Translations under genes and position numbers: made by a program | Assembly: GCA_001567485.1 (NCBI GenBank) | Contig: JZRA01000080.1 | Span: 1 to 64,000 of the forward strand | Direction: 5' to 3' | Origin: Chloroflexi bacterium OLB13 | Lineage (GTDB): Bacteria; Chloroflexota; Anaerolineae; Aggregatilineales; Phototrophicaceae | Length of the DNA stretch: 64,000 bases | Shown: positions 29,224 to 45,101 of the stretch, in pieces | Layout: every line of letters starts with the position of its first letter | Numbering within the stretch: position 1 is the first letter of the stretch | Notes under the pieces: model-generated | Seen by the model: only the letters and a program-made list of their open reading frames with translations | Database searches by the model: none | What the model was told of the DNA's origin: nothing

Positions 29224-30903
29224 ATGCGGCAGTGGTTACGACTCAGCAGGCTTGGCAAGCTCGGCAGCGTGATCATCCTTGCGCTTGTCGCCGTGGTGGC
29301 GCTGGCCCAACACATGCCTGACGCCTGTTTCACGCTGGTGCAAGGCGCATTGCAAGCCGCCGCGCAATTATGTACGGAGATTGCCCGCAATCAGGTGTGT
29401 TACGGCAACGTACTGAATGTCGCGACGCCGTTTGATGGGGTCGATGACTTCGTATTCGATACGGCCGGCGACATCGAGCAGCTGCTGCGGGTGCAGACCC
29501 TCGAACTCAGCCCGTTTGATGAACAACTTCGGCAGTGGGGCGTCGCGCTGATGAAGCTGCAAGCGACGCTGCCCGACGCGCTGCCGGGGCAAAACGTCAC
29601 GTTCGTCCTGTTTGGCGACACGTACATCGAGGCCGCCACGGGGGTTCAGGGCCGGTCGGACGGCGCCGCGCGCACCGCTGCTAACATTCGCATCGGCCCA
29701 AACGACACCAGCCCAATTGTCGGCTCGGTGCGCGCAGGCGCGGCGGTTGTGGTGACGGGCCAATACACCAACAGCCTTGACGAGCTGTGGCTGCGGATAC
29801 GGTTCGAGGATTACCGCACGCGCACTGGCTGGGTGCTGGGCGATCTGGTGGATGCCGACCTGACGGAGATTCCAGAGGTCACCGCCGATTCGCTGACGTA
29901 CAGCCCAATGCAGGCGTTCTACTTCAAGACCGGCATCGGCCGCCCAACGTGCTCCGCTGCGCCAACGGACGGCATGATCGTGCAGACTCCTTCCGGCGTG
30001 GGCAAGGTGAGCTTCACCGTCAACGGAATCGAGGTCGCGATGGGATCGACGGCGTATATCGACTCGCGCGGTGACTTCGATCAAACGTGTGTCACGTTGA
30101 TCGCCGGCGACGCTGATCTGCGCGTGGCCGGCGTCCTCATCGACTTGAATCCGGGCGAGAGCAGCTGTACACGCAAATCCGGGCCGCCGGGGCCAGCCCA
30201 CCCCTTCGACGCTGAGGCAATGGCGCTCTTGGAGCCGGTTCTCGACCTGCTTCCTGAGGACGTCACGATTCCACCGCCGGCCATCCGCCGCACGCCAACG
30301 CCCGTCGTGAGCAGCGTGCCGGGCGGTTCGGGGCCGGGCGCGACGCCGGGGGGCACTCCGGTAGTTATCGCGACGCCGGGCGGCCCGACCATTACGCCGG
30401 GCGGGCCGTCACGATTCGTCAACGCCGGCTACTCGCGCAATTACTTCACCGCGAACTTCACCGCCAGCGGCGGGCCGGATGCCCCGGCAACCTTCAACTG
30501 GTACTTCGGCGACGGCGGCGTCGGCGGTGGCGCGACGACCAGCCACACGTATGCCGTGACCGGCAGTTTTAGCGCGCTGGTCGAGGCGTGCTGGTCGGAC
30601 GGCTTCTGTTTGCAGCAGTCCTTCGGGGTGGACGTGCCGCCGTGCGCAATTGACTTCAGCATTCCAATCAGCACTATCCAGTTCAATTTCACGGGAACGT
30701 CAGAATCCTTCCTGATTGGGCGGCAGGACGAGTGGTGCAACCCATCAGCTTCGTCAGCCGTCACGCTGAACTCCACTAACACATCGTATGGAACGAGTGT
30801 GTATCTCGGCGAACACTGGTTTGCTGTTGATCTCAGCACGTCCGCCGTTGTCTACGAGGTCACGGTGTCGAACGCAAGCCCGATCTACATGAATCTTCCG
30901 TAA
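29224..30903 (+). CDS. Secreted SH3b-domain protein with PKD domain (paralog 1 of 3)
   Basis: A 559-residue secreted protein. The signal peptide covers residues 1-27 (VIILALVAVVALAQ). The conserved N-domain (about 30-145) has the C-x-L-V...C...RN-x-VCYGN pattern and a core reading LPGQNVTFVLFGDTYIE. An SH3b domain follows (about 150-225, IRIGPNDTSPIVGSVRAGAA to RTGWVLGDLVD). After it come the family-specific PMQAFYFKTGIGRPTC and an FecR-like strand unit (to about 300). A Pro/Thr/Gly linker (345-400) leads to a PKD domain (about 405-470, FNWYFGDGG). SH3b domains commonly bind cell-wall peptides; the N-domain role is unknown. GAGG precedes ATG 29224. Paralogs lie at 30941 and 38291. Confidence 0.8.
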   Translation: MRQWLRLSRLGKLGSVIILALVAVVALAQHMPDACFTLVQGALQAAAQLCTEIARNQVCYGNVLNVATPFDGVDDFVFDTAGDIEQLLRVQTLELSPFDEQLRQWGVALMKLQATLPDALPGQNVTFVLFGDTYIEAATGVQGRSDGAARTAANIRIGPNDTSPIVGSVRAGAAVVVTGQYTNSLDELWLRIRFEDYRTRTGWVLGDLVDADLTEIPEVTADSLTYSPMQAFYFKTGIGRPTCSAAPTDGMIVQTPSGVGKVSFTVNGIEVAMGSTAYIDSRGDFDQTCVTLIAGDADLRVAGVLIDLNPGESSCTRKSGPPGPAHPFDAEAMALLEPVLDLLPEDVTIPPPAIRRTPTPVVSSVPGGSGPGATPGGTPVVIATPGGPTITPGGPSRFVNAGYSRNYFTANFTASGGPDAPATFNWYFGDGGVGGGATTSHTYAVTGSFSALVEACWSDGFCLQQSFGVDVPPCAIDFSIPISTIQFNFTGTSESFLIGRQDEWCNPSASSAVTLNSTNTSYGTSVYLGEHWFAVDLSTSAVVYEVTVSNASPIYMNLP

Positions 30904-30940
30904 GCGATTGAACCATCGAAGTAGTGACCGAGGACACGCC

Positions 30941-32611
30941 ATGACACCCTTCACCACCCACATCAGGCGAGCGATTTGGACGCTCTTTGTGCTGGTGGTT
31001 GGCTCGTCGGTCGGCGCGCAGCCCAGCCAGCATGCCCCGTGCTTCGCGCTCGTCCAATCCGCGCTGCAAGCCGCCGATGCTGCATGCGCGGCGACAGGGC
31101 GTAATGAGGTTTGTTACGGTAACGTGTCGGGCGTAGCGACCCCGGCCGCCGGTGTGAGCGATCTGGTGTTCGATCAGGTTGGCGACATCGCGCCGGTCGG
31201 CAGTATCCGCGCGCTTCAGCTCAGCCCGCTGAACGAAGCAAAGCAGGAGTGGGGCGTCGCGGTGATGCGTTTGCAGGCTAATCTGCCCGATACGCTGCCG
31301 GGCCAGAACGTCACGTTTGTGTTGTTCGGCGATGTGACCATCGAGGACGCTGTTCACGATCAAGCACGCATAGCCGGTCAGGTGCGTGTGGGGTCGAACG
31401 TGCGCTATCTGCCATCCGGCGATGCCGATATCGTCGGATCGCTGCGGCGCGGCGAGATGGCGCTCGTCACTGGAAAAGCGGAGGACGCCAACGGCAATCT
31501 GTGGTACCGCGTGAAATATGATCATTACCGCACGCGTACCGGCTGGGTGCTGGGTGAGCTGATCGACGTCGACGCGGATCTGCTGCCTGAGGTCGAACGC
31601 ACATCGCTCGTCACCAACCCGATGCAGGCGTTCTACTTCCGCACCGGCATCGGACGTCAGACGTGCGAAGAGGCGCCGGCTGACGGGATAGTCGTGCAAA
31701 CTCCGGAGGGGATCGGCATGGTGACGTTCAACGTCAACGGTGTCGATGTCTCGCTGGGTTCGACGGCGGTGATTACCGATACGGCGGACGGACTGTCGTT
31801 TGCGTTGATGGAGGGCCGCGGTCTGGTGCAAGCGCAGGGTGTGATGCGCGTCCTTGTGCCCGGTTCCGAGACGATTGTGCGGATGGATGAGCAGGGCTAT
31901 GCGGCGGAATCACCGACCCCGCCGCAGCCGATCGCGCCGGAGACATTCGCGATGGCATCCGAGGCGATGGGTGTGATGGATCGGCCTGTCGAAGTGCCGC
32001 TGCCTGCCGGCATGGCGGAGATCGAACAGGCCAATACGCTGCCTGTCCTTGACGGGGACTTGCCGGGGATGCCGCCTGCTTGCCCCGCCGATGCTGATCC
32101 GGCGGCATGCGGCTGTGCGGATGATGATCGCGACGGCCGCTGCGACATGCCATGCGAAGATCGTGACGGCGACGGGATTTGCGATCCGCTGGTGTGTATC
32201 GACGCCGATGGGGACGGCCAATGCGACGGCGCGAACTGCGAAGACCGCGACAACGACGGCCAATGCGACGTCGCGGATCCCTGCGAAGAATCGGCGGCTG
32301 GGTGCGGATGTCCCGATTTGAACAACAACGGACTCTGCGATGTCGATGAGGCCACATGCACGTCGACCGACTGCTCGAACTGTATCGACCGCGATAACGA
32401 CGGCCAGTGCGATGATCTTGACGCATGTGTCGACAGCGATGGCGACGGCGCGTGCGAGACCTGCCTCGGCCTACCATGTAACCCGTCAGCTACATCGGCC
32501 CCATCGCTTCCCACGCTTCCTTTAGTCACGGCGCCGACGCGAACGATCACATCGTCCCCGACGCGAAGCCCGACTCCGTTTCCCACGCAGACGTCGACGG
32601 CTGGCTCATAA
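30941..32611 (+). CDS. Secreted SH3b-domain protein with calcium-type repeat tail (paralog 2 of 3)
   Basis: A 556-residue secreted protein 37 bases after paralog 1. It has a signal peptide (TLFVLVVGSSVGAQ), the same N-domain (FALVQSALQAADAAC, RNEVCYGNVSGVATP, LPGQNVTFVLFGDVTIE), an SH3b domain (to RTGWVLGELIDVD) and PMQAFYFRTGIGRQTCEEAP. The PKD domain of paralog 1 is replaced by a Cys/Asp-rich tail at about 385-510 with repeated D-x-D-x-D-G-x-C units (EDRDGDGICD, DADGDGQCD, DRDNDGQCD), as in thrombospondin type 3 calcium-binding repeats. A Ser/Thr/Pro end follows. GAGG lies before ATG 30941. Probably surface-exposed and stabilised by calcium; function unknown. Confidence 0.8.
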   Translation: MTPFTTHIRRAIWTLFVLVVGSSVGAQPSQHAPCFALVQSALQAADAACAATGRNEVCYGNVSGVATPAAGVSDLVFDQVGDIAPVGSIRALQLSPLNEAKQEWGVAVMRLQANLPDTLPGQNVTFVLFGDVTIEDAVHDQARIAGQVRVGSNVRYLPSGDADIVGSLRRGEMALVTGKAEDANGNLWYRVKYDHYRTRTGWVLGELIDVDADLLPEVERTSLVTNPMQAFYFRTGIGRQTCEEAPADGIVVQTPEGIGMVTFNVNGVDVSLGSTAVITDTADGLSFALMEGRGLVQAQGVMRVLVPGSETIVRMDEQGYAAESPTPPQPIAPETFAMASEAMGVMDRPVEVPLPAGMAEIEQANTLPVLDGDLPGMPPACPADADPAACGCADDDRDGRCDMPCEDRDGDGICDPLVCIDADGDGQCDGANCEDRDNDGQCDVADPCEESAAGCGCPDLNNNGLCDVDEATCTSTDCSNCIDRDNDGQCDDLDACVDSDGDGACETCLGLPCNPSATSAPSLPTLPLVTAPTRTITSSPTRSPTPFPTQTSTAGS

Positions 32612-32702
32612 CGTGAGTCGAACGGTGGCTTAGAAACCGCGCCGGGCGATCCGGCACGGATGAAGATGCGCTAGAATGGGGCTGTACGAATGAGGCCCCA
32701 TT

Positions 32703-35700
32703 TTGACATCCATGACCCACGTATCCACCGAAGATTTTGTCCATCTGCACGTACATACCGAGTATTCGCTGCTAGACGGCTTGAGCAAGATCAAGAAGCT
32801 CGTTGCGCGCGCGAAACAGCTTGCGATGCCGGCGCTCGCGATCACCGATCATGGCACGATGTACGGCGTGCAGGAGTTCTACAAAGCCGCCACCGAGGCC
32901 GGCATCCAGCCGATCCTCGGCATGGAAGCGTATCTGTCGCCGCGCGGCATGGCCGACCGTGACAGCGTACTCGACCGCCGGTCGCTCCACATGCTCTTGC
33001 TCTCGCGGAATTACACGGGCTATCGCAATCTGCTGCGGATCGCGAGCGCTGCGCAGCTCGAAGGGTACTACTACCGGCCGCGGATCGACTTCGATTACTT
33101 GGCCGCGCACAGTGATGGAATTATCGCGACGACCGGATGCCTCGCCGCCCGTGTGCCTCAGCTCATCATTGCCGGCAAAGACGACGAGGCCCGCGAGTGG
33201 ATCGGCAAGTTCGTCGACGTGTTCGGGCCGGAGAATTTCTATCTCGAACTACAGCATCATGCGATCCCGGAACTGGAGACGGTCAACCGCTGGTTGATTG
33301 ACTATGCCCGCAGCGGACACACGCCGGTGCGACTGCTCGCCACCAACGACGTGCACTACATCCTCAAGGAGGATCACGACACGCACGACACGCTGCTGTG
33401 CATCCAGACCGGCGAACTCAAGTCGACGCCCAAGCGCGAGGATCACAACGAGGAGGGCGGGGGCGGCGGACGTTTGGCAATGTCCGACCCGAGCTATCAC
33501 TTGACCAGCGCGGCCGAGATGGCCGAGTTGTTCAGCGAGACACCGGACGCGCTGCGGGCATCGCTCGACATCGCCGAGATGTGCCGCTATGACATGCCGG
33601 AGAAGGAATACCACTTCCCGAAGTTCCCGGTTCCGCCCGGTTTCGATGCGCAAACGTATCTACGTCACCTGTGCGAGATCGGCATGGTGTGGCGTTTTGG
33701 GTCACACGCCGATGACCCTGAACTGCGCGCGCAGCTCGATTTCGAGCTGGACGTTATCAACTCCATGGGGTTCAACACCTACTTCTTGATCGTGTGGGAT
33801 TTGTGCGAATACGCGCGCCACAGCGATATCTGGTTCAACGTGCGCGGCTCAGGCGCGGGGAGTCTCGCGCTGTACTCGCTTGGGATCACCAGCATCGACC
33901 CGATTCAGAATGTGCTGTTCTTCGAGCGATTCCTGAACCCTGAGCGCAAGACGATGCCCGACATCGACATCGACTATCCGGATGACCGGCGCGCTGAGAT
34001 GCTCGCGTACAGCGTGCAGAAGTACGGCACGGACAAGGTCGCCTCGATCATCACGTTCGGGACGCTGGGCGCGAAGAACGCCGTGCGCGATGTGGCGCGT
34101 GTGCTGGGCGTCGATCTGCAAAAGGTCGACCGTGCGCTGAAGCTGGTGCCGCAGGAACCGAAGCCGAAACCGATCGAGGAGTATGTCTCCGAGAATCCAG
34201 ATCTGCGTGCGATGGTCGAGGGCGACTCTGAACTCAAATCGGTGGTTGAGATCGCCGCGAACGTGCAGGGGATGCGGCGGCACGCGTCGGTGCACGCCGC
34301 CGGTGTCATCATCGCTGACCGCGACCTGCGCGACTATCTGCCGCTGCATCGCATGACCGGCAAGGAGAACGCCGATTCTCCGATCAAACAGGTGACGCAG
34401 TTCACGATGGAGACGTGCGAGCAGATCGGCCTGCTCAAGATCGACTTCCTCGGGCTGGCGACGCTGAACATCTTACGCACGGCGTGCGAGCTGATCGCCC
34501 GCTATCACGGCGTGCATTACAACATGGACACCATCCCTCACCGCCACGACGATCCGAGGCTCACCGACGAGCAGCTTGAGCAGCTCAACGAGGCATACGC
34601 CCTGATCGCCCGTGGGGAAACGGTTGGCGTGTTTCAGCTTGAAAGCGGCGGTATGCAGGGGATGCTGCGCGATATGCGCCCGCGCGAGTTCGAGAACATC
34701 GTGGCGGCCGTGTCGTTGTATCGACCGGGGCCGCTTCAGTTCATCCCGCTTTATAACGAACGCTTGCATGGGGCGGAGGTCGAGTACATCCACCCCGGGC
34801 TGGAACGGATCACGTCGCCGACGTACGGGATCATGGTCTATCAGGAACAGATCATGCAGATCGCGCGTGACCTGTTCGGCTACAAGCTAGGCGAAGCCGA
34901 CCTGATGCGCCGCGCCGTGAGCAAGAAGAAGGAAGCCGACCTCGCCAAGCACCGGGCGTACTTCCGCGAGCGCGGGCCGGCGCACGGTGTCTCGGTCGAG
35001 ATCGCGGACGCTATCTTCGATCAGGTCGAGAAGTTCGCTAATTACGGGTTCAACAAGGCGCATGCCGCCGACTACGCCGTGTTGAGCGTTCAGACGGCGT
35101 TTATCAAGGCGCATTATCCTGAGGAATACATGGCCGCGCTGCTGACCGTACAGCGCACTGACGCAGCGAAGGTCGCCGGGTTCCTCGAAGAGTGCCGGCG
35201 CTTGAAGATCCCCATCCTGCCGCCAGATATCAACTCGAGTGAACTCAACTTCGCAATCGAGGGGAAGCCCGGCGAACGGCGCGGGATTCGATTCGGGCTG
35301 GTCGCCATCAAGGGCGCGGGAGAGGCCGCGCTTGGCCCGATTGTCGATGCGCGCCACGAAGGCGGGCCGTTTACCGGATTGGAGGACTTCGCGCGCCGTG
35401 TTGATCTGCGCAAGGTCGGCAAACGCACGATCGAGGCGCTGGCGCAGGTCGGCGCCTTGGACTCGGTGCATGCAGACCGGCAGCAGTTGTTTGAGCAGGC
35501 CGGCGCGTTGATCGAAGTGAGCGCGCGTATTCACGCCGACATCGAGCGCGGGCAGATGAGCTTGTTCGGCGGCGAGGTGATCGACGATCACGTCGTCTTG
35601 AAACCGATAGACGCGCGCCAGCGCAAGTCCGTCCGCGACCTGTTGATGTGGGAGAAGGAACTGCTTGGCGTCTACGTCAGCGGCAGGCCAATCGACAAGT

Positions 35701-36614
35701 TCCGCCGCGACCTTGAACGCCTGAACACGCATGAAGTGTTTGAGCTGAAGCAGAACGCCGCCGAGCATCACGATCAGACGGTGGTCATCGCCGGCGAGAT
35801 CGTGTCGATGCGCAAGATGTTCACGCAGCAGCAGAAGGCGATGGCGGTGCTGCACGTCGAGGACTGGCACGCCAGCGCATCCCCGATCGAGGTCGTGTTG
35901 TTCCCGCGCCCCTACGCCAACGTCGAGGCGTTGATCGAACACGAGCAGATCACGCCGCTGCGGGAAGGCGAAGTGTACGTGTTCTTCGGGAAATTCGACA
36001 ACTCGCGGGGTGAGCCGCAGATGATCTGCGAGCGCCTTAGCCAAGACTTGCAGCTGATCGACCCGATTGAGCCGCTGGCGCCCCGTTCTGAGCGTGCCGA
36101 ATCGAGCGCCGAGCCAGATTGGGATCTGCTGCCGCAGGTGGATCATGCGCCTGTGCCGGACACGGACGCCGCGCCGAATGCCGCCAGCGAAGCCGACGTG
36201 GCCGAAGCTGATCGCGAGATGACCTCGGAAAGCGATCTTGAGGCCGATCTGCCCGCGAACGCGCCGGACTGGATGCGGTCGAACGCGGCTGACGATTCGG
36301 CGCGCTGGCTTATCGTCAACTTGCGGCGCAGCGGCGACCACCAGCGGGATACGCAGCTTTTACGCCGCGTGTATCACGCCGTGTTTGAGCGCCGCGGTCG
36401 CGACTACTGCCTGCTGCGGACTGAGGTTGACGGGATACCGTCGTGGATCCAATTCGACATGCGCACGCGCTGCGACGACGCGTTGATCGCAGAGCTTCAA
36501 AGTCTTGACGGCGTGGAATCAATGGATGTTCGCAGCAGCCCGCCGCCGGGTGTGCCGATCCCCGGCAGCGCCGGCGCAGCGAATGGGTCTGCGCGCCGGC
36601 GCTACCAGCGTTAG
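32703..36614 (+). CDS. dnaE: DNA polymerase III alpha subunit
   Basis: A 1303-residue replicative polymerase. The N-terminal PHP domain opens with FVHLHVHTEYSLLDGL, which keeps the metal-binding H-x-H; proofreading by this domain is known in related bacteria. The palm acidic residues are D420, D422 and D424 in PDIDIDYPDD. The tandem helix-hairpin-helix and OB-fold regions follow, with LLMWEKELLGVYVSGRPID near residue 985. The last 130 residues (from about 1170) are acidic then basic and exceed typical DnaE length. TTG 32703 is favoured because GAGG (32692-32695) is seven bases upstream; ATG 32712 is possible. The gene lies inside the cluster of SH3b paralogs. Confidence 0.96.
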   Translation: MTSMTHVSTEDFVHLHVHTEYSLLDGLSKIKKLVARAKQLAMPALAITDHGTMYGVQEFYKAATEAGIQPILGMEAYLSPRGMADRDSVLDRRSLHMLLLSRNYTGYRNLLRIASAAQLEGYYYRPRIDFDYLAAHSDGIIATTGCLAARVPQLIIAGKDDEAREWIGKFVDVFGPENFYLELQHHAIPELETVNRWLIDYARSGHTPVRLLATNDVHYILKEDHDTHDTLLCIQTGELKSTPKREDHNEEGGGGGRLAMSDPSYHLTSAAEMAELFSETPDALRASLDIAEMCRYDMPEKEYHFPKFPVPPGFDAQTYLRHLCEIGMVWRFGSHADDPELRAQLDFELDVINSMGFNTYFLIVWDLCEYARHSDIWFNVRGSGAGSLALYSLGITSIDPIQNVLFFERFLNPERKTMPDIDIDYPDDRRAEMLAYSVQKYGTDKVASIITFGTLGAKNAVRDVARVLGVDLQKVDRALKLVPQEPKPKPIEEYVSENPDLRAMVEGDSELKSVVEIAANVQGMRRHASVHAAGVIIADRDLRDYLPLHRMTGKENADSPIKQVTQFTMETCEQIGLLKIDFLGLATLNILRTACELIARYHGVHYNMDTIPHRHDDPRLTDEQLEQLNEAYALIARGETVGVFQLESGGMQGMLRDMRPREFENIVAAVSLYRPGPLQFIPLYNERLHGAEVEYIHPGLERITSPTYGIMVYQEQIMQIARDLFGYKLGEADLMRRAVSKKKEADLAKHRAYFRERGPAHGVSVEIADAIFDQVEKFANYGFNKAHAADYAVLSVQTAFIKAHYPEEYMAALLTVQRTDAAKVAGFLEECRRLKIPILPPDINSSELNFAIEGKPGERRGIRFGLVAIKGAGEAALGPIVDARHEGGPFTGLEDFARRVDLRKVGKRTIEALAQVGALDSVHADRQQLFEQAGALIEVSARIHADIERGQMSLFGGEVIDDHVVLKPIDARQRKSVRDLLMWEKELLGVYVSGRPIDKFRRDLERLNTHEVFELKQNAAEHHDQTVVIAGEIVSMRKMFTQQQKAMAVLHVEDWHASASPIEVVLFPRPYANVEALIEHEQITPLREGEVYVFFGKFDNSRGEPQMICERLSQDLQLIDPIEPLAPRSERAESSAEPDWDLLPQVDHAPVPDTDAAPNAASEADVAEADREMTSESDLEADLPANAPDWMRSNAADDSARWLIVNLRRSGDHQRDTQLLRRVYHAVFERRGRDYCLLRTEVDGIPSWIQFDMRTRCDDALIAELQSLDGVESMDVRSSPPPGVPIPGSAGAANGSARRRYQR

Positions 36615-36629
36615 ACGCACGGGCGAAAG

Positions 36630-38291
36630 CTATCCCGGCCCATAGTAGAGCGTTGACCGGTACGGGCCTAGTTCGCAGAGGGTCGTCAAGTTCTGGTTGG
36701 CGTCGAAGACCAACGCCTGTATCACCCAGCTGATGCTTTGCGGTTCGAAGCTGCCCAGATCACGCAAGATTGACGTGTAGATTCCGGTTTCCGTCGGCCC
36801 TACGCGATACAGCTTGAGCGATCCGCTGATAATGTTTCCGCTGTAATCGACTGCCTGCATCGCGAGTTGATAGCCAGCGACGTTGGTTGCAGGAGTCCAT
36901 GCGAACAACTGGTTGTACGGGTCAACTTGCTGGCCCGGGCCGATCAGGTTGAATCCGGCGCAGGACGGCTGATTCGGATTCGCGGTCGGCGCGGCGGTGG
37001 GCTTTTGGCCGGGAACCGAGGTCGGCCGCGGGCCGCTGCTCGTCGGCTGAACCGGGATAATCGGCGCAATCCGCGGGAGCCGCGTCGGCGTCGGCTTGAC
37101 GCGAGGGCCGTTCTGAACCGACTGCTGAATCTCCTCCGGGCTGGGGAGCGTAAGCGGATAACGCGGGAACGGGAAGTCCTCAAGGCTCTCGAACGGCGTG
37201 AAATCCTCGACGAGCTGCGGCGGCGTGAACTCGGTCGTGAACAACGGCTGGCGTTCGTCGCTCAGGCACGCCACGCTCTTACTCTGGTGACCCAGCGGAA
37301 CGAATGTGCCGCCGCCGTTTGCCAGCATATCGCCGTGCAGAATCGTGATCTCGGAGAGCAGGCAGGCAGTGTTTTCCGGCAGGTCGAAGCTCTCCAGCAC
37401 GGGGCGCACGCTGCCGTCGCCCATTAGGGCGCCGAACGTCAACTCGCTGGATTTCAGCGCGATGGTCGAGCCGATCTCGACTTCCGCGCCGTTGATGTTG
37501 AGCGCGATCCGCACTTCCTCCGGGCCTTGAATGACCAGTAGGTCGGGGGCTTCTTCGCAGACAGGCCGGCCGATGCCGGTGCGGAAATAGAACGCCTGCA
37601 TCGGTGAAACGGGCGTGTCCGGCGCGACGGGAAGATCGGCGAACTGCGCACGCGTCCCTTCCTGCGGCCCGACCAGATCAGCGAAGATCCATTCATACGG
37701 TGACTGACCGGATAGGCGCAGCCAATCCCCCGCTTCGTTGCGCGCGTCGACATCGAACAACTGGCCCGGATCGGCGGTGCTGCTCACGTTGAACACCGTG
37801 CCGGGACCGCTGCGCACATTGACGCGCCCGCCGGTAGTCACCGATACCCGGATCGGATCGACGGCCTCGAAATCGGTGTTCGGATCGACGGCGTTCTCCA
37901 CACGGGTATCACCGAGCAGGACGAACGTGACCGCTTGGCCCGGCAGGGTGTTGGGCACGTTGGCCTGCACGTTCAGCAGCGCGACTCCCCACTGCTCAAG
38001 GGCCTCGTCAAGCGGTGCGGTCTGAACGGCGGCGACATCCGTCAGCGCGGCGCGGTCGGCCGGGGCGCTGAAGAAGGCCTCGTCCACCGTTTCGAAGAAC
38101 GTGGCGTCGACGCGGTTGAACCCGTAACACATGCTGTTACGCGTCATCCCGCCGCAGTTGTCGCCGACGGACTGCATTGCACGGGCGACCAGCGCAGGGC
38201 AGGTCGTAGGCTGTGCAGCGACGCTGATTACCGTTACCCCAAGCAGGGCATACGACAGGGTTGTGATCCAAGCGCGGATTCGTCGGTACAT
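36630..38291 (-). CDS. Secreted SH3b-domain protein (paralog 3 of 3)
   Basis: A 553-residue secreted protein converging on dnaE, 16 bases away. It has a signal peptide (ALLGVTVISVAAQ), the N-domain (CPALVARAMQSV, RNSMCYGFNRVDATF, LPGQAVTFVLLGDTRVE), an SH3b domain (RVNVRSGPGTVFNVSSTADP) and PMQAFYFRTGIGRPVCEEAP with the FecR-like unit. A Pro-rich linker (about 410-455) precedes a new C-terminal domain (VAGYQLAMQAVDYSGNIISG). The common first half with paralogs 1 and 2 and the different tails suggest a shared anchoring part with exchangeable outer modules. Confidence 0.8.
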   Translation of the reverse strand: MYRRIRAWITTLSYALLGVTVISVAAQPTTCPALVARAMQSVGDNCGGMTRNSMCYGFNRVDATFFETVDEAFFSAPADRAALTDVAAVQTAPLDEALEQWGVALLNVQANVPNTLPGQAVTFVLLGDTRVENAVDPNTDFEAVDPIRVSVTTGGRVNVRSGPGTVFNVSSTADPGQLFDVDARNEAGDWLRLSGQSPYEWIFADLVGPQEGTRAQFADLPVAPDTPVSPMQAFYFRTGIGRPVCEEAPDLLVIQGPEEVRIALNINGAEVEIGSTIALKSSELTFGALMGDGSVRPVLESFDLPENTACLLSEITILHGDMLANGGGTFVPLGHQSKSVACLSDERQPLFTTEFTPPQLVEDFTPFESLEDFPFPRYPLTLPSPEEIQQSVQNGPRVKPTPTRLPRIAPIIPVQPTSSGPRPTSVPGQKPTAAPTANPNQPSCAGFNLIGPGQQVDPYNQLFAWTPATNVAGYQLAMQAVDYSGNIISGSLKLYRVGPTETGIYTSILRDLGSFEPQSISWVIQALVFDANQNLTTLCELGPYRSTLYYGPG

Positions 38292-38407: not shown

Positions 38408-38408
38408 G

Positions 38409-38481
38409 TGCCACAGGCGAGAGTCGAACTCGCGACCCATGCATTTTCAGTGCATTGCTCTACCAGCTGAGCTACCGTGGC
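38409..38481 (-). tRNA. tRNA-Phe (anticodon GAA)
   Basis: A 73-base cloverleaf. The acceptor GCCACGG pairs with CTGTGGC, the D-stem is GCTC/GAGC, and the anticodon stem ATGCA/TGCAT encloses loop CTGAAAA. The T-arm is GCGAG-TTCGACT-CTCGC. Discriminator A, no encoded CCA. A single copy of this tRNA lies here with its own terminator. Confidence 0.96.
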
Positions 38482-38643: not shown

Positions 38644-41600
38644 ATGAACCGTCATCGTTTTTCTGCAGCCGCTTTGGCGATGCTCAGTGTTTTCTCCCTC
38701 ATAGCGTTGGCGGTGGCGCCTGTATCTGCGCAGGATCGCGCGCGCGGTGACGGGCCTGCTGACTTGCGCGCAGCGCCGGAGGCCAGCGCGGTCGATCCCG
38801 CGTATCTGCGCGCGCAGGCCGATCAACACGGCACGGTGAGCGTGATCGTCGGCTTGGTGGTGAATCTGCCGGGCCGTATGGCCTTTGCCGACATGGACGA
38901 TGGGGCGCAGCGCGCCGTGATCTCACAGATGCAGGATGCCGTGTTGGCCCAGATCGGCCAGACGCGCAGCATGCCGGAGGTCAAGCGATACGCGACGTTC
39001 CCGATGATGGCGCTGCAAGCGTCGCCGGAGGAACTCGACGTGCTGCTCGAGTCGACGCTGGTGTCGTTCGTGCAGGAAAACCGCTGGCGCGAGCCGTCGC
39101 TGATCCAATCGACGGCGATTATCGGCATGCAGGGGGCAACCGGTGCTTGGGCGCTGGGGGCAGACGGTCAAGGCACGAACGTCGTCGTCATCGACTCCGG
39201 CATCGAAAAAGCGCATCCGTTCCTGACCGGCAAGGTCGTGAGCGAGGCGTGCTGGGGCACGACCGGCGTGTTCACCGGCTTCACGGCGACCTCAAACTGT
39301 CCGGGCAACGTTGCGTACACCAATGTCCCCGGCTCTGGGGAGCCGTGCAACGTCGCCGGCGGAGAGTGCGACCACGGCACGCATGTGGGCGGCACGATCG
39401 CTGGCGAGAGCAACCCGCCAAGTGACACGTTCAACGGCGTGGCGAAGGAAGGCCGCTTAGTCTCCTTGCAGGTTTTCAGCCGCATTCAGGACGATGCCGA
39501 TCCGATGACCACGCCCGTGTGTGTTCGTCCCGGCTATCCTCATACCGAGTGCATTCTGGCGGCTGATGGCGACATCATCGCCGCGATGGATTACGCCCGC
39601 CTGCTTCACAACGCAGACACCTTCCCGATTGCCGCGGTCAACATGAGCCTAGGCAACGAATCGTACCCGTCTCAGGCGAGCTGTGACGCCGCGCTTCCTG
39701 CGTATGTCGTCGCGGTCGCTGGGCTGAACTCGATTGGGGTTCCGGTGGTGGCCTCGTCGGGCAATCAGGGCAGCACGATCTCGATGAACGCGCCGGCGTG
39801 CATCACCGGCGTGATCTCGGTCGGGGCCACCACCGATTTCGACCAGATCGCCACGTTCACCAACTCGGCGCCGTTCCTGACGTTCGTCGCGCCGGGCGTC
39901 AATATCGAGTCGTCCGTACCCGGCGGCATTTACGGCGTCAAGACCGGGACGTCGCAGGCCGCGCCACACGTCAGCGGGGCGATTGCCGCGCTGAGAAGCC
40001 TGCGCCCTGAGGCCGACATCACACAGATCATCGACGCGCTGAAGAACAGCGCCGTCAACATCACCGACATCGGCGGGACATTCAAGCGCATCGACGTCGA
40101 CGGCGCAATCGGCGAGCTGGATATCCCCGACAAGCCCAAACTGCGCCTTCCCGCTGATGGCGCCGCCTTTGCCGCCTCGCCGATCACCTTCAAGTTCAGC
40201 ACCGGTGACTTCACCACCCGTGCGACGCTTGAGATCTGGGACGGGAATACGCGAATCGTCAAGGAGAACGTCGATGATCCGGGCAGCTGCCCGCAGGATC
40301 CCGCCTTCGGAAACAAGGTGGTTTGCGCCGTCAACGTGACCTATCCGTTTGTTGACGAGAAAACCTATACATGGCTGGTCGTCGCCAAGAATATGGACAA
40401 CGGCTCCCGGACGAACAGTGTGACGCGGTCGTTCGAGTTCGATACGCCGGGCCGTGCCACTTTGCTGACCCCTGCCAACAAGGTCACGATCAACACGCAG
40501 GCCGAGCTAGCGGTCTTGCAGTGGGGTGAGGTTGACCTCGCCACCAGCTACCGCGTCACGTTGTTCGATACCGACGACGGCGCTGTGATCATCAACGCGA
40601 CCGTCGCCGAGGGGACTGTCTGCGCATCGCAGGTGTGCACCTACACCGTTCAGCCGTTCGAACAATCGCAGCTGCTCGACGACAAGAAGTACAAGTGGTA
40701 CGTCGTCTCGATGGACGGCAGCGATACGTCGAAGAGCGAGAAGTTTAAGATCTTCACTGAGTTCCCGGCCGCGCCGATGCTGACCTATCCGGACAACAAC
40801 TGGACGTTCAACGCCCTCGACGACATCGAACTGCGCTGGACAGAGGTCGCCACGGCCGAGGAATACCGGCTGCGCATCTGGAAGAACGCGAACAATAAGA
40901 AGATCATCGACGTGACCTACGTTGTCCCCGGCCGTTCGATCGGGTGTTCGGCGGGTACGTGCACATGGACGCCTGAACCGGTCGATCTGACGCTGCTGCA
41001 GAACCAGACCGACTACCGGTGGACGGTGCGGGCCGAGAACGCGTTGGGCAAGACCGAGAGCTTGCCGCGTATCTTCCGCATCCAGTCGCCTGCACCGCCC
41101 GCGTTGATCGCACCGGCGGACGACGCCAAGCTCAACGATGCCAATGTGACGTTCTCGTGGAGCGCGATCAGCGACGCCGACTCGTACAAGCTGATCGTCA
41201 AGGATACCAAGAACGGCGCCAAGGTCTTGAAGACGACAGTGGTCGGCACGACCTTCATGCAGCCCGCTGGGTTGTTCAAGAATGACCGGACGTACAAGTG
41301 GTTCGTGAAGTCGAAGAATGAGCTGGGCAGCGCCAAGAGCGTGAAGTACACGTTCGAAACGGAGTTTCCGCACAAGCCCAATTTGCAGTCTCCGGCTGAC
41401 AATACCAAGCTCCACGATCCGTCGGAACTGACGACGATGGTCTGGCGGTCAGGCAACACCACCGAGCCAATCACATATAAGGTGATCGTCAAGCGCGTCG
41501 ATAACGGCGTGAAGGTCTTCAAGCAGGTCGTGTCGGTCGGGGTCGATACGGTGTGCGACGCGACCATCTGTACCTTTACCGTGCCGCAGTCGCTGCGTAA

Positions 41601-41706
41601 TGCGCTCAAGGACGGCAAGGACTACAAGTGGCACGTCAGGGCGGAGACCCCGTCGGGCAGTCAGAAGAGCGCTACGAAATTCATCTTCAAAGCGCGCTTT
41701 CCGTAA
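38644..41706 (+). CDS. Secreted subtilisin-family serine protease with C-terminal FN3-like repeats
   Basis: A 1020-residue extracellular protease. It has a signal peptide (1-30), a propeptide-like region (40-150) and an S8 catalytic domain (about 155-490). The triad is intact: D184 (VIDSGIE), H244 (HGTHVGG) and S437 (GTSQAAPHVSG). From about 495 five roughly 100-residue Ig/FN3-like modules follow, each with a tryptophan near YKWFVKSKNELG or a close variant and a start like P-x-L-x-x-P-A-D. Such modules hold the enzyme at a surface or bind polymers. GAGG precedes ATG 38644. It stands as a single gene with its own terminator past the stop. Likely used for protein degradation. Confidence 0.92.
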   Translation: MNRHRFSAAALAMLSVFSLIALAVAPVSAQDRARGDGPADLRAAPEASAVDPAYLRAQADQHGTVSVIVGLVVNLPGRMAFADMDDGAQRAVISQMQDAVLAQIGQTRSMPEVKRYATFPMMALQASPEELDVLLESTLVSFVQENRWREPSLIQSTAIIGMQGATGAWALGADGQGTNVVVIDSGIEKAHPFLTGKVVSEACWGTTGVFTGFTATSNCPGNVAYTNVPGSGEPCNVAGGECDHGTHVGGTIAGESNPPSDTFNGVAKEGRLVSLQVFSRIQDDADPMTTPVCVRPGYPHTECILAADGDIIAAMDYARLLHNADTFPIAAVNMSLGNESYPSQASCDAALPAYVVAVAGLNSIGVPVVASSGNQGSTISMNAPACITGVISVGATTDFDQIATFTNSAPFLTFVAPGVNIESSVPGGIYGVKTGTSQAAPHVSGAIAALRSLRPEADITQIIDALKNSAVNITDIGGTFKRIDVDGAIGELDIPDKPKLRLPADGAAFAASPITFKFSTGDFTTRATLEIWDGNTRIVKENVDDPGSCPQDPAFGNKVVCAVNVTYPFVDEKTYTWLVVAKNMDNGSRTNSVTRSFEFDTPGRATLLTPANKVTINTQAELAVLQWGEVDLATSYRVTLFDTDDGAVIINATVAEGTVCASQVCTYTVQPFEQSQLLDDKKYKWYVVSMDGSDTSKSEKFKIFTEFPAAPMLTYPDNNWTFNALDDIELRWTEVATAEEYRLRIWKNANNKKIIDVTYVVPGRSIGCSAGTCTWTPEPVDLTLLQNQTDYRWTVRAENALGKTESLPRIFRIQSPAPPALIAPADDAKLNDANVTFSWSAISDADSYKLIVKDTKNGAKVLKTTVVGTTFMQPAGLFKNDRTYKWFVKSKNELGSAKSVKYTFETEFPHKPNLQSPADNTKLHDPSELTTMVWRSGNTTEPITYKVIVKRVDNGVKVFKQVVSVGVDTVCDATICTFTVPQSLRNALKDGKDYKWHVRAETPSGSQKSATKFIFKARFP

Positions 41707-43414: not shown

Positions 43415-43445
43415 GATGGAAGGGAGTTGTTGAGGGATCCGTATC

Positions 43446-45101
43446 ATGCAGATCGATGTCGCGCTTGAATTCGATACGTTTCCGGCGGGCAGGCCGCTGC
43501 GCATCTACCTGATGGTGTTGATTAAGGCGGAAAGCGTGGTCGGCGAAGCGCGCAGGCGTCCGCTGAATCTAAGCCTCGTGGTTGACCGCAGTGGTTCGAT
43601 GGCCGGGCCGAAGATCGACTATACGCGGCGCGCGGCGCAGATGCTCGTACAGAACCTCGGCGCGTCGGACACGCTGTCGGTCGTGCTTTACAACGACACC
43701 GTCGAAACGCTGTTGAACCCGGAGAAGGTGCAGCGCAAGGACATCATCAACCAACAGATCAGCCGGATCACGCCCAGCGGGGCGACCAATCTGAGCGGGG
43801 GATGGCTGCAAGGCGTCAACTTCGTGGCGCAAAATCTCGACAAAGCCCAGACCAACCGCGTGATCCTGATTTCGGACGGGTTGGCGAATCGCGGCGTGAC
43901 CGAGGCCTCGAAGCTGGTGACGTTCGCCACACAGAAGTACGGCGAGGGCGTCAGCACGACGACGATGGGTCTCGGTGACGACTTCAACGAAGAACTGCTC
44001 ATCAGCCTAGCCAACGCGGGCGGCGGAGCGTACTACTACATTGAAAGCCCGGAGGTGATGCCCACCATCCTCAACGAGGAGCTGACCGGTCTGCTCAAGA
44101 TGGTCGGGCAGAACATGACGATCCATGTCGGTGGTGTGCCATCGGGTTCGGTGCGTCAGATGAACGCGTATACCGAAGAGCCGGGCAGCACGGGCAAGAC
44201 GTTCCACCTCGGCGACGTGTTCGGGGACGAGATCAAGGCGCTGGTGCTTGAGCTTGAACTACCGGGGTTTGAACAGGCCGGCGCACAGCGCGCGGCTACG
44301 CTGACGATGACCTATGACAAGCTCACGGACTCCGGCGTCACACGGGAAAAAATCGAGCGCGAAATCACCATCACCATCGACGCGAACGCGCTCGCGGCAG
44401 GGCGTAAGTCGAATACGCAGGTGGTCGAGCAGGTCATGCTGCTGAAGGCCGCTCATGCGCGCCGTCAAGCGGTGGATCTGGCGGATCACGGCAAGTTCAG
44501 CGAGGCGTCTCAAGTGCTGGAGGCCGTAATCGCCGAGATCGACGAGTCCAGCGTGGCGGATGTGTCGATTCTTGAGGACGAGAAGAAGTCGCTCTCCGAG
44601 CAGGCCAAGGAGATGAGCCAAAGCTCGCAAACCGACATGAACGTCCCCGCGTTCTCGCGCAGGCGCAAGACGCTGTCCTCGCAGGCGTATTACACGATGA
44701 CCAGCCGCCATAACGAGACCGTTGTCATGCGCCAGCGGATGAACACGCCGGAAGAGTCATCGCCCGCCAAAAACCCGAAAGAGATCGACACCAAACCGCA
44801 GCGCGGATCACCACGCTTTGCGCATTACAGCGGCCGCGATTACCCGATCGAGGGCGACGAGGTTCACTTTGGCCGGGCGGTCGAGAATACAATCGTCGTC
44901 GATGAGCGCGGCGTGTCGCGGTTCCACTGTGTGCTGCGTCGTGATGGCGAGATCTACTGGCTGGAAGACACCGGCAGCACGAACGGAACGGTTATCAACG
45001 GAACGTCGCTGAGCGGTCGCCATCCTATTCGGGCCGGCGACATCATCCACCTCGGCGAGGCCAAGATCGTGTTTCACGACGGAACCACGGAGCAGTTATG
45101 A
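43446..45101 (+). CDS. VWA domain protein with C-terminal FHA domain
   Basis: A 551-residue cytosolic-looking protein. The N-terminal VWA domain (about 37-215) has a complete MIDAS motif: D47-x-S49-x-S51 (VVDRSGSMAG), the T in SGATNLSGG and the D in VILISDGLANRG. A middle helical region (300-390) follows. A C-terminal FHA domain (about 465-535) has FGRAVENTIVVDERGVSRFH and STNGTVINGTSL, which bind phosphothreonine. Such VWA-FHA proteins link metal-dependent binding to Ser/Thr phosphorylation, but no kinase is in the window. GAGGG precedes ATG 43446. The stop overlaps the next gene (ATGA), so they are coupled. Confidence 0.87.
   Translation: MQIDVALEFDTFPAGRPLRIYLMVLIKAESVVGEARRRPLNLSLVVDRSGSMAGPKIDYTRRAAQMLVQNLGASDTLSVVLYNDTVETLLNPEKVQRKDIINQQISRITPSGATNLSGGWLQGVNFVAQNLDKAQTNRVILISDGLANRGVTEASKLVTFATQKYGEGVSTTTMGLGDDFNEELLISLANAGGGAYYYIESPEVMPTILNEELTGLLKMVGQNMTIHVGGVPSGSVRQMNAYTEEPGSTGKTFHLGDVFGDEIKALVLELELPGFEQAGAQRAATLTMTYDKLTDSGVTREKIEREITITIDANALAAGRKSNTQVVEQVMLLKAAHARRQAVDLADHGKFSEASQVLEAVIAEIDESSVADVSILEDEKKSLSEQAKEMSQSSQTDMNVPAFSRRRKTLSSQAYYTMTSRHNETVVMRQRMNTPEESSPAKNPKEIDTKPQRGSPRFAHYSGRDYPIEGDEVHFGRAVENTIVVDERGVSRFHCVLRRDGEIYWLEDTGSTNGTVINGTSLSGRHPIRAGDIIHLGEAKIVFHDGTTEQL

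Follow-up and report, generated by a model that had tools for sequence, protein, structure and literature searches.

What kind of proteins are encoded on either side of dnaE in this Anaerolineae genome, and are they a local peculiarity or members of something larger? Within the window (i.e., the whole 64,000-nucleotide stretch analysed here), dnaE (32703..36614, + strand) lies between gene 1 (29224..30903, +, 559 amino acids) and gene 2 (30941..32611, +, 556 amino acids) on one side and gene 3 (36630..38291, −, 553 amino acids) on the other. The original prediction, made from the sequence alone, had described them as three secreted paralogues that share a base but carry different tails, and the open reading frames at these places bear this out: blastp aligns genes 1 and 2 with E = 6e-93 (47% identity over 332 amino acids), genes 1 and 3 with E = 3e-41, and genes 2 and 3 with E = 3e-42, values so far beyond chance that the three are true paralogues. 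The motifs on which the prediction was built are present in all of them with small variations, i.e., CYGN or CYGF, LPGQxVTFVL[F/L]GD and PMQAFYF[K/R]TGIGR. The statement that the proteins differ only in their tails was too strong, as gene 3, a member of another clade (see below), is just 34–35% identical to genes 1 and 2 within the shared half. Beyond gene 3, a tRNA-Phe gene (gaa; 38408-38481, −) separates it from an adjoining gene for a subtilase with fibronectin-like repeats (38644-41706, +), a relative of which adjoins dnaE on the opposite strand in a genome of the same genus (G002), while a further gene, 5 kb from gene 3 (43434-45098, +), combines a von Willebrand A-like N-terminal part with an FHA-like C-terminal end.

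The N-terminal domain of the shared half had been said to match no known family, and it indeed fell into no Pfam or NCBIfam family, either in genes 1–3 (none of which is named in NCBIfam) or in 108 homologues. Pfam recognised SH3_3 in the shared half of 93 of these homologues, the remainder being scattered; FecR matches were weak and confined to 4/108 (best E 0.057), and PF04773 (FecR) at its own cut-off had no match in the window genome. Matches of homologues to SH3_and_anchor and EntFM, for which the table does not give the matched stretch, may be due to their SH3b part. A PDB sequence-profile search with the family returned SH3-type chains only, the plasmid collection searched did not contain it, and we found no account of it in the literature searched. 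The SH3b domain itself, predicted for the shared half, was confirmed: SH3_3 (PF08239) passes its cut-off of 27 bits in gene 1 (35.3 bits; 29677..29850, +, residues 152-209) and stays just under it in gene 2 (23.9 bits) and gene 3 (21 bits; 37671..37826, −, residues 156-207).

As for the tails, the PKD domain announced for gene 1 (30445..30591, +) passes the Pfam cut-offs (PF18911, 29.3 vs. 27; PF00801, 23.6 vs. 23.5). The Asp/Cys calcium-type repeats of gene 2 (approximate limits 32090..32485, +) look thrombospondin-3-like by eye and had no thrombospondin type 3 or EF-hand match in Pfam up to E = 1, a test weakened by the low complexity of the sequence; for the beta-rich tail of gene 3, Pfam has no match. 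Among 137 family tails, most were likewise without a match, the others carrying LysM (8), SH3b (3), PKD (2) or single other domains.

The nature of the shared half was approached through structure prediction. Two AlphaFold2 models were computed, one of the shared half of gene 2 with 108 sequences (pLDDT 90.6, pTM 0.84) and one of a natural homologue devoid of SH3b (L101:3731-4495; pLDDT 92.5, pTM 0.91). In VIA-align, the SH3b part of the gene 2 model matches many SH3b chains (Z up to 10.9), while residues 59-317 match the FecR-type chains 4m0n (Z 10.4), 4m0h (10.2) and 6ovk (10.2) over 131–134 residues, in an alignment that spans both sides of the SH3b domain. When the SH3b-less model was compared with the PDB, FecR-type sigma regulators were the only chains above noise, i.e., 6ovk (PupR; Z 10.3 over 133 residues) and 4m0n and 4m0h (both BDI_1681; Z 9.9 and 9.7), the next best reaching Z 3.9. 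Foldseek searches with the SH3b-bearing model were swamped by SH3b chains, a difficulty resolved by the natural SH3b-less homologue, for which FecR-type chains rank first (probability 0.99–1.00). The matched range of PupR (111-251) covers the whole of its juxtamembrane CJM subdomain, residues 110-238, for which a novel fold, all-beta and resembling a twisted solenoid, was described (PMC7186176).

Taken together, the FecR-type matches of both models imply one fold, with SH3b lodged in a loop that joins two of its strands. The free-standing N-domain of the original prediction is thus not upheld: in the models, its second half is joined with the PMQAFYF string and the FecR-like unit into a single FecR-type fold. 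PMQAFYF, which might have proved to be an ordinary SH3b linker, is predicted to be a core beta strand (model residues 202-207). In gene 2, this predicted architecture begins with a Cys-bearing cap (31025..31201, +) made of a helix and a hairpin, whose three cysteines stand at model positions 6, 21 and 30 and whose roughly 60 residues are an addition beyond the FecR match; it continues with the first half of the beta fold (31202..31354, +; model residues 60-110), containing WGVAVM and LPGQNVTFVLFGD, then with SH3b (31358..31582, +; model residues 112-186), and resumes with the second half (31619..31975, +), which starts with the PMQAFYF strand and bears an invariant cysteine at model position 214. 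The corresponding PMQAFYF strand and second half lie at 29905..30264 (+) in gene 1 and at 37392..37604 (−) in gene 3. Scored against canonical FecR domains of the same genomes, the family profile reached 39.7 (P = 3e-5), compared with at most 19.3 for 40 column permutations and 16.9 for the reversed profile. The FecR relationship consists of a structural match of predicted models, to which a weak profile similarity is added.

The order observed in the window (cap and first half of the FecR-type fold, SH3b, second half) recurs in 146 of about 180 family open reading frames; 22 lack SH3b and six have an extra C-terminal one. The median gap between the two halves of the fold falls from 89 residues with SH3b to nine without. 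Because natural relatives without SH3b exist and its presence switches at least five times on the family tree, SH3b is an optional insert in the FecR-type fold. In a divergent copy of the window genome (L010 5491-6891, on contig G000:C111), two SH3b domains follow the fold and none interrupts it. The cysteines at model positions 21, 30 and 214 are present in 108/108 sequences and that at position 6 in 107, the remaining row being incomplete there. As one of these four conserved residues sits in the second half of the fold, a disulfide between cap and second half is likely from the alignment. A hydrophobic segment directly precedes the domain in 139/140 members (judged from hydropathy only), and seven members (L074, L095, L096, L098, L099, L100, L114) have a C-terminal hydrophobic helix.

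How far, then, are these proteins comparable to known systems? Like the FecR-type sigma regulators PupR and BDI_1681, their predicted models are all-beta over about 133 residues (Z 9.7–10.3), and the family retains weak profile similarity to canonical FecR. Unlike PupR and BDI_1681, the window proteins appear to be secreted, have neither an anti-sigma domain nor an STN domain, are not detected by PF04773, and possess the additional Cys-bearing cap and the SH3b in the loop. Moreover, FecR-type regulators have a cytoplasmic anti-sigma domain followed by one membrane helix, whereas the window proteins open with a signal-like segment before the domain; in a related branch from another family of the class (f9), a membrane helix is present, but the cytoplasmic part is TPR-like. 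The SH3b agrees with SH3_3 in both sequence and fold, but sits within another domain instead of in series with it and is dispensable. A related arrangement is that of canonical FecR–SH3b proteins of about 320 amino acids from the same lineage, which are also secreted and combine a FecR domain with an SH3b-like stretch, but which Pfam does detect as FecR, with the SH3b placed after the FecR domain and without the Cys cap. This series arrangement was seen in secreted proteins of about 300–430 amino acids from related genomes (L146, L148, L149, L152, L154-L158).

We then turn to distribution, since the original prediction saw in the locus a local expansion around a housekeeping gene. Copies were counted across related genomes, as it had proposed, and the family was found in 55 of 61 (window genome included), with up to 31 matches in one genome. 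In a class-wide sample, 36/297 genomes have matches, mostly in the window's order, plus f9 and a few single distant ones; three very distant single members (L271, L273, L274), from other families of the class, have a further C-terminal region. Besides genes 1–3, contig C107 of the window genome carries a fourth full copy, and C111 the divergent fifth. Adjacent members share one strand in 46/46 pairs, nearly all less than 200 bp apart, and thus form tandem arrays. The order nucleoside-kinase-like gene, family genes, dnaE and subtilase is repeated in G002, and a family gene and dnaE are also together in G001; among the neighbourhoods of relatives compared, dnaE next to family genes was not found outside the window's genus. 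In the family tree, genes 1 and 2 group with copies of the same genus, while gene 3 falls in another clade, which takes in sequences of other families of the order (36 rows, local support 96). This clade is older than, and distinct from, that of genes 1 and 2, so that gene 3 is not their local duplicate. The notion of a local expansion must therefore be given up: the family is order-wide, and its linkage to dnaE is a feature of one genus. Family arrays also occur on JAPUDW scaffolds (L074, L110) of a metagenome-assembled genome labelled Bacteroidetes; a spread to Bacteroidetes was rejected, as these arrays nest within Anaerolineae and the genome is probably mis-binned.

The neighbourhoods of relatives provide the main functional clue. 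In f9, which is the deepest branch, the gene is a single copy without SH3b, encoding a membrane helix, the domain and a Thr/Pro-rich stalk, in most cases with a TPR-like N-terminal part (weak Pfam matches) and a C-terminal beta domain, and in all six genomes with enough flanking sequence (L159-L162, L279, L280) it lies between genes for an FHA protein and a Ser/Thr kinase, i.e., an FHA / TPR-TM-FecR-fold / kinase operon. In the window's order, a kinase or FHA gene lies within about 150 bp in several branches. Examples from the gene 3 clade are L097 (kinase at 26 bp) and L117 (FHA at 117 bp), and in the window's own genus a family gene stands head to head with a 1066-amino-acid kinase at 105 bp (G002:C266). 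To quantify this, 80 regions were picked by similarity from the matches of the 61-genome search, with context ignored, yielding 82 clusters and 143 flanks. Between −150 and 250 bp, these flanks carry 10 kinases and eight FHA genes, compared with 0.4–1.3 kinases expected if there are 30–100 kinases per 4.5 Mb (Poisson P from 1e-11 to 1e-6, a calculation that ignores relatedness among loci). Nine of the 10 flanking kinases are on the same strand, and kinase-nSTAND1-WD40 proteins of about 1500 amino acids are among the kinase partners scanned. These STK-nSTAND1-WD40 and FHA signalling proteins are operon partners of part of the family, not homologues, and we found no account in the literature searched of a FecR-type ectodomain paired with kinases or with these signalling proteins. 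Genes 1–3 and most secreted copies have no kinase neighbour, the kinase-nSTAND1 gene that the window genome has on C64 adjoins neither a family gene nor an FHA gene on the flanking DNA covered, and a Pfam census of neighbours showed no dominant partner beyond SH3b and FHA.

At face value, the kinase linkage might be incidental, as kinases are many in Anaerolineae (26 matches in the window genome, at least 34 in many relatives) and related loci may have been counted repeatedly. This we regard as improbable, for an internal control, the kinase density beside family genes relative to that elsewhere in the same DNA, gives a ratio of 15.8 (about 16-fold), and the flanking kinases come from 10 different genomes in three arrangements, to which the 6/6 of the outgroup family are added. 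A stronger competitor, possible if rather doubtful, is a wall-anchored scaffold or adhesion protein without any signalling, whose FecR-type fold would be a rigid spacer, whose SH3b would bind the wall and whose tails (PKD, calcium-type repeats, Ig-like, LysM) would bind matrix or cells. The variable tails with the LysM, SH3b and PKD counts given above, the Pro-rich linkers, the tandem arrays on one strand in all 46 adjacent pairs and the lack of a kinase neighbour at genes 1–3 all suit such a role, yet pure scaffolds would not be expected to share operons with kinases and FHA proteins time and again, as happens among relatives and in the transmembrane branch; this linkage points to sensing or signalling instead of the purely structural scaffold originally proposed. 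The fold match to PupR and BDI_1681 could also suggest secreted anti-sigma-like regulators of a FecR pathway, contacting an outer-membrane transporter and controlling an ECF sigma factor. This is very unlikely: a cytoplasmic anti-sigma domain is absent from the window proteins, which match neither STN nor any anti-sigma family in Pfam (STN is also absent from the Pfam matches of the 137 family tails), and sigma factors are outside the 25 commonest of 176 neighbour families (106 neighbours sampled). Since the anti-sigma domain, STN and the Pfam match are all absent, the family was not classed with the FecR anti-sigma factors; the best reading is that it functions as the extracytoplasmic half of FecR does, but is no anti-sigma factor.

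We thus favour, with a probability of about 0.6, a large, unnamed family of secreted Anaerolineae proteins in which SH3b interrupts a FecR-type fold, acting as wall-bound sensors or adaptors linked in part to FHA proteins and kinases. The observations beneath it are that the three genes are paralogues, that the predicted fold matches FecR-type chains and has SH3b inserted in it, that the cysteines are invariant, and that genes of relatives are linked to those of kinases and FHA proteins. According to this sensor or adaptor reading, the proteins would be exported by the Sec route as a disulfide-rich beta domain of the FecR type (PupR juxtamembrane, CJM), with SH3b in one loop and a variable outer tail. 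SH3b and, in relatives, LysM or a C-terminal membrane helix would keep them at the wall or surface, and they would offer sensor or adaptor surfaces for cell-envelope signals. In the deepest branch, as in several of the branches within the window's order, the partner would be a Ser/Thr kinase and FHA pathway, and the kinase operons of relatives hint at a role in sensing the cell surface for kinase signalling. The copies beside dnaE would be secreted members, which by analogy with their relatives may do the same job. More tentatively, and with odds that we place somewhat below even, the family could be a new class of extracellular sensors, in which a split FecR-type ectodomain, carried by a TPR-membrane protein or a secreted, wall-bound SH3b protein, has an FHA/kinase output (the kinase-nSTAND1-WD40 giants included) instead of an anti-sigma one and has multiplied, within one Anaerolineae order, to dozens of paralogues whose tails are exchangeable.

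Altogether, a domain without a name becomes a relative of a known fold, and the family offers a case of one domain inserted into a loop of another for which natural insert-free forms exist. For bacterial Ser/Thr kinases, few of which have a known input signal, it would also supply a partner open to testing, and it would put a name to the many secreted Anaerolineae paralogues that family libraries do not recognise.
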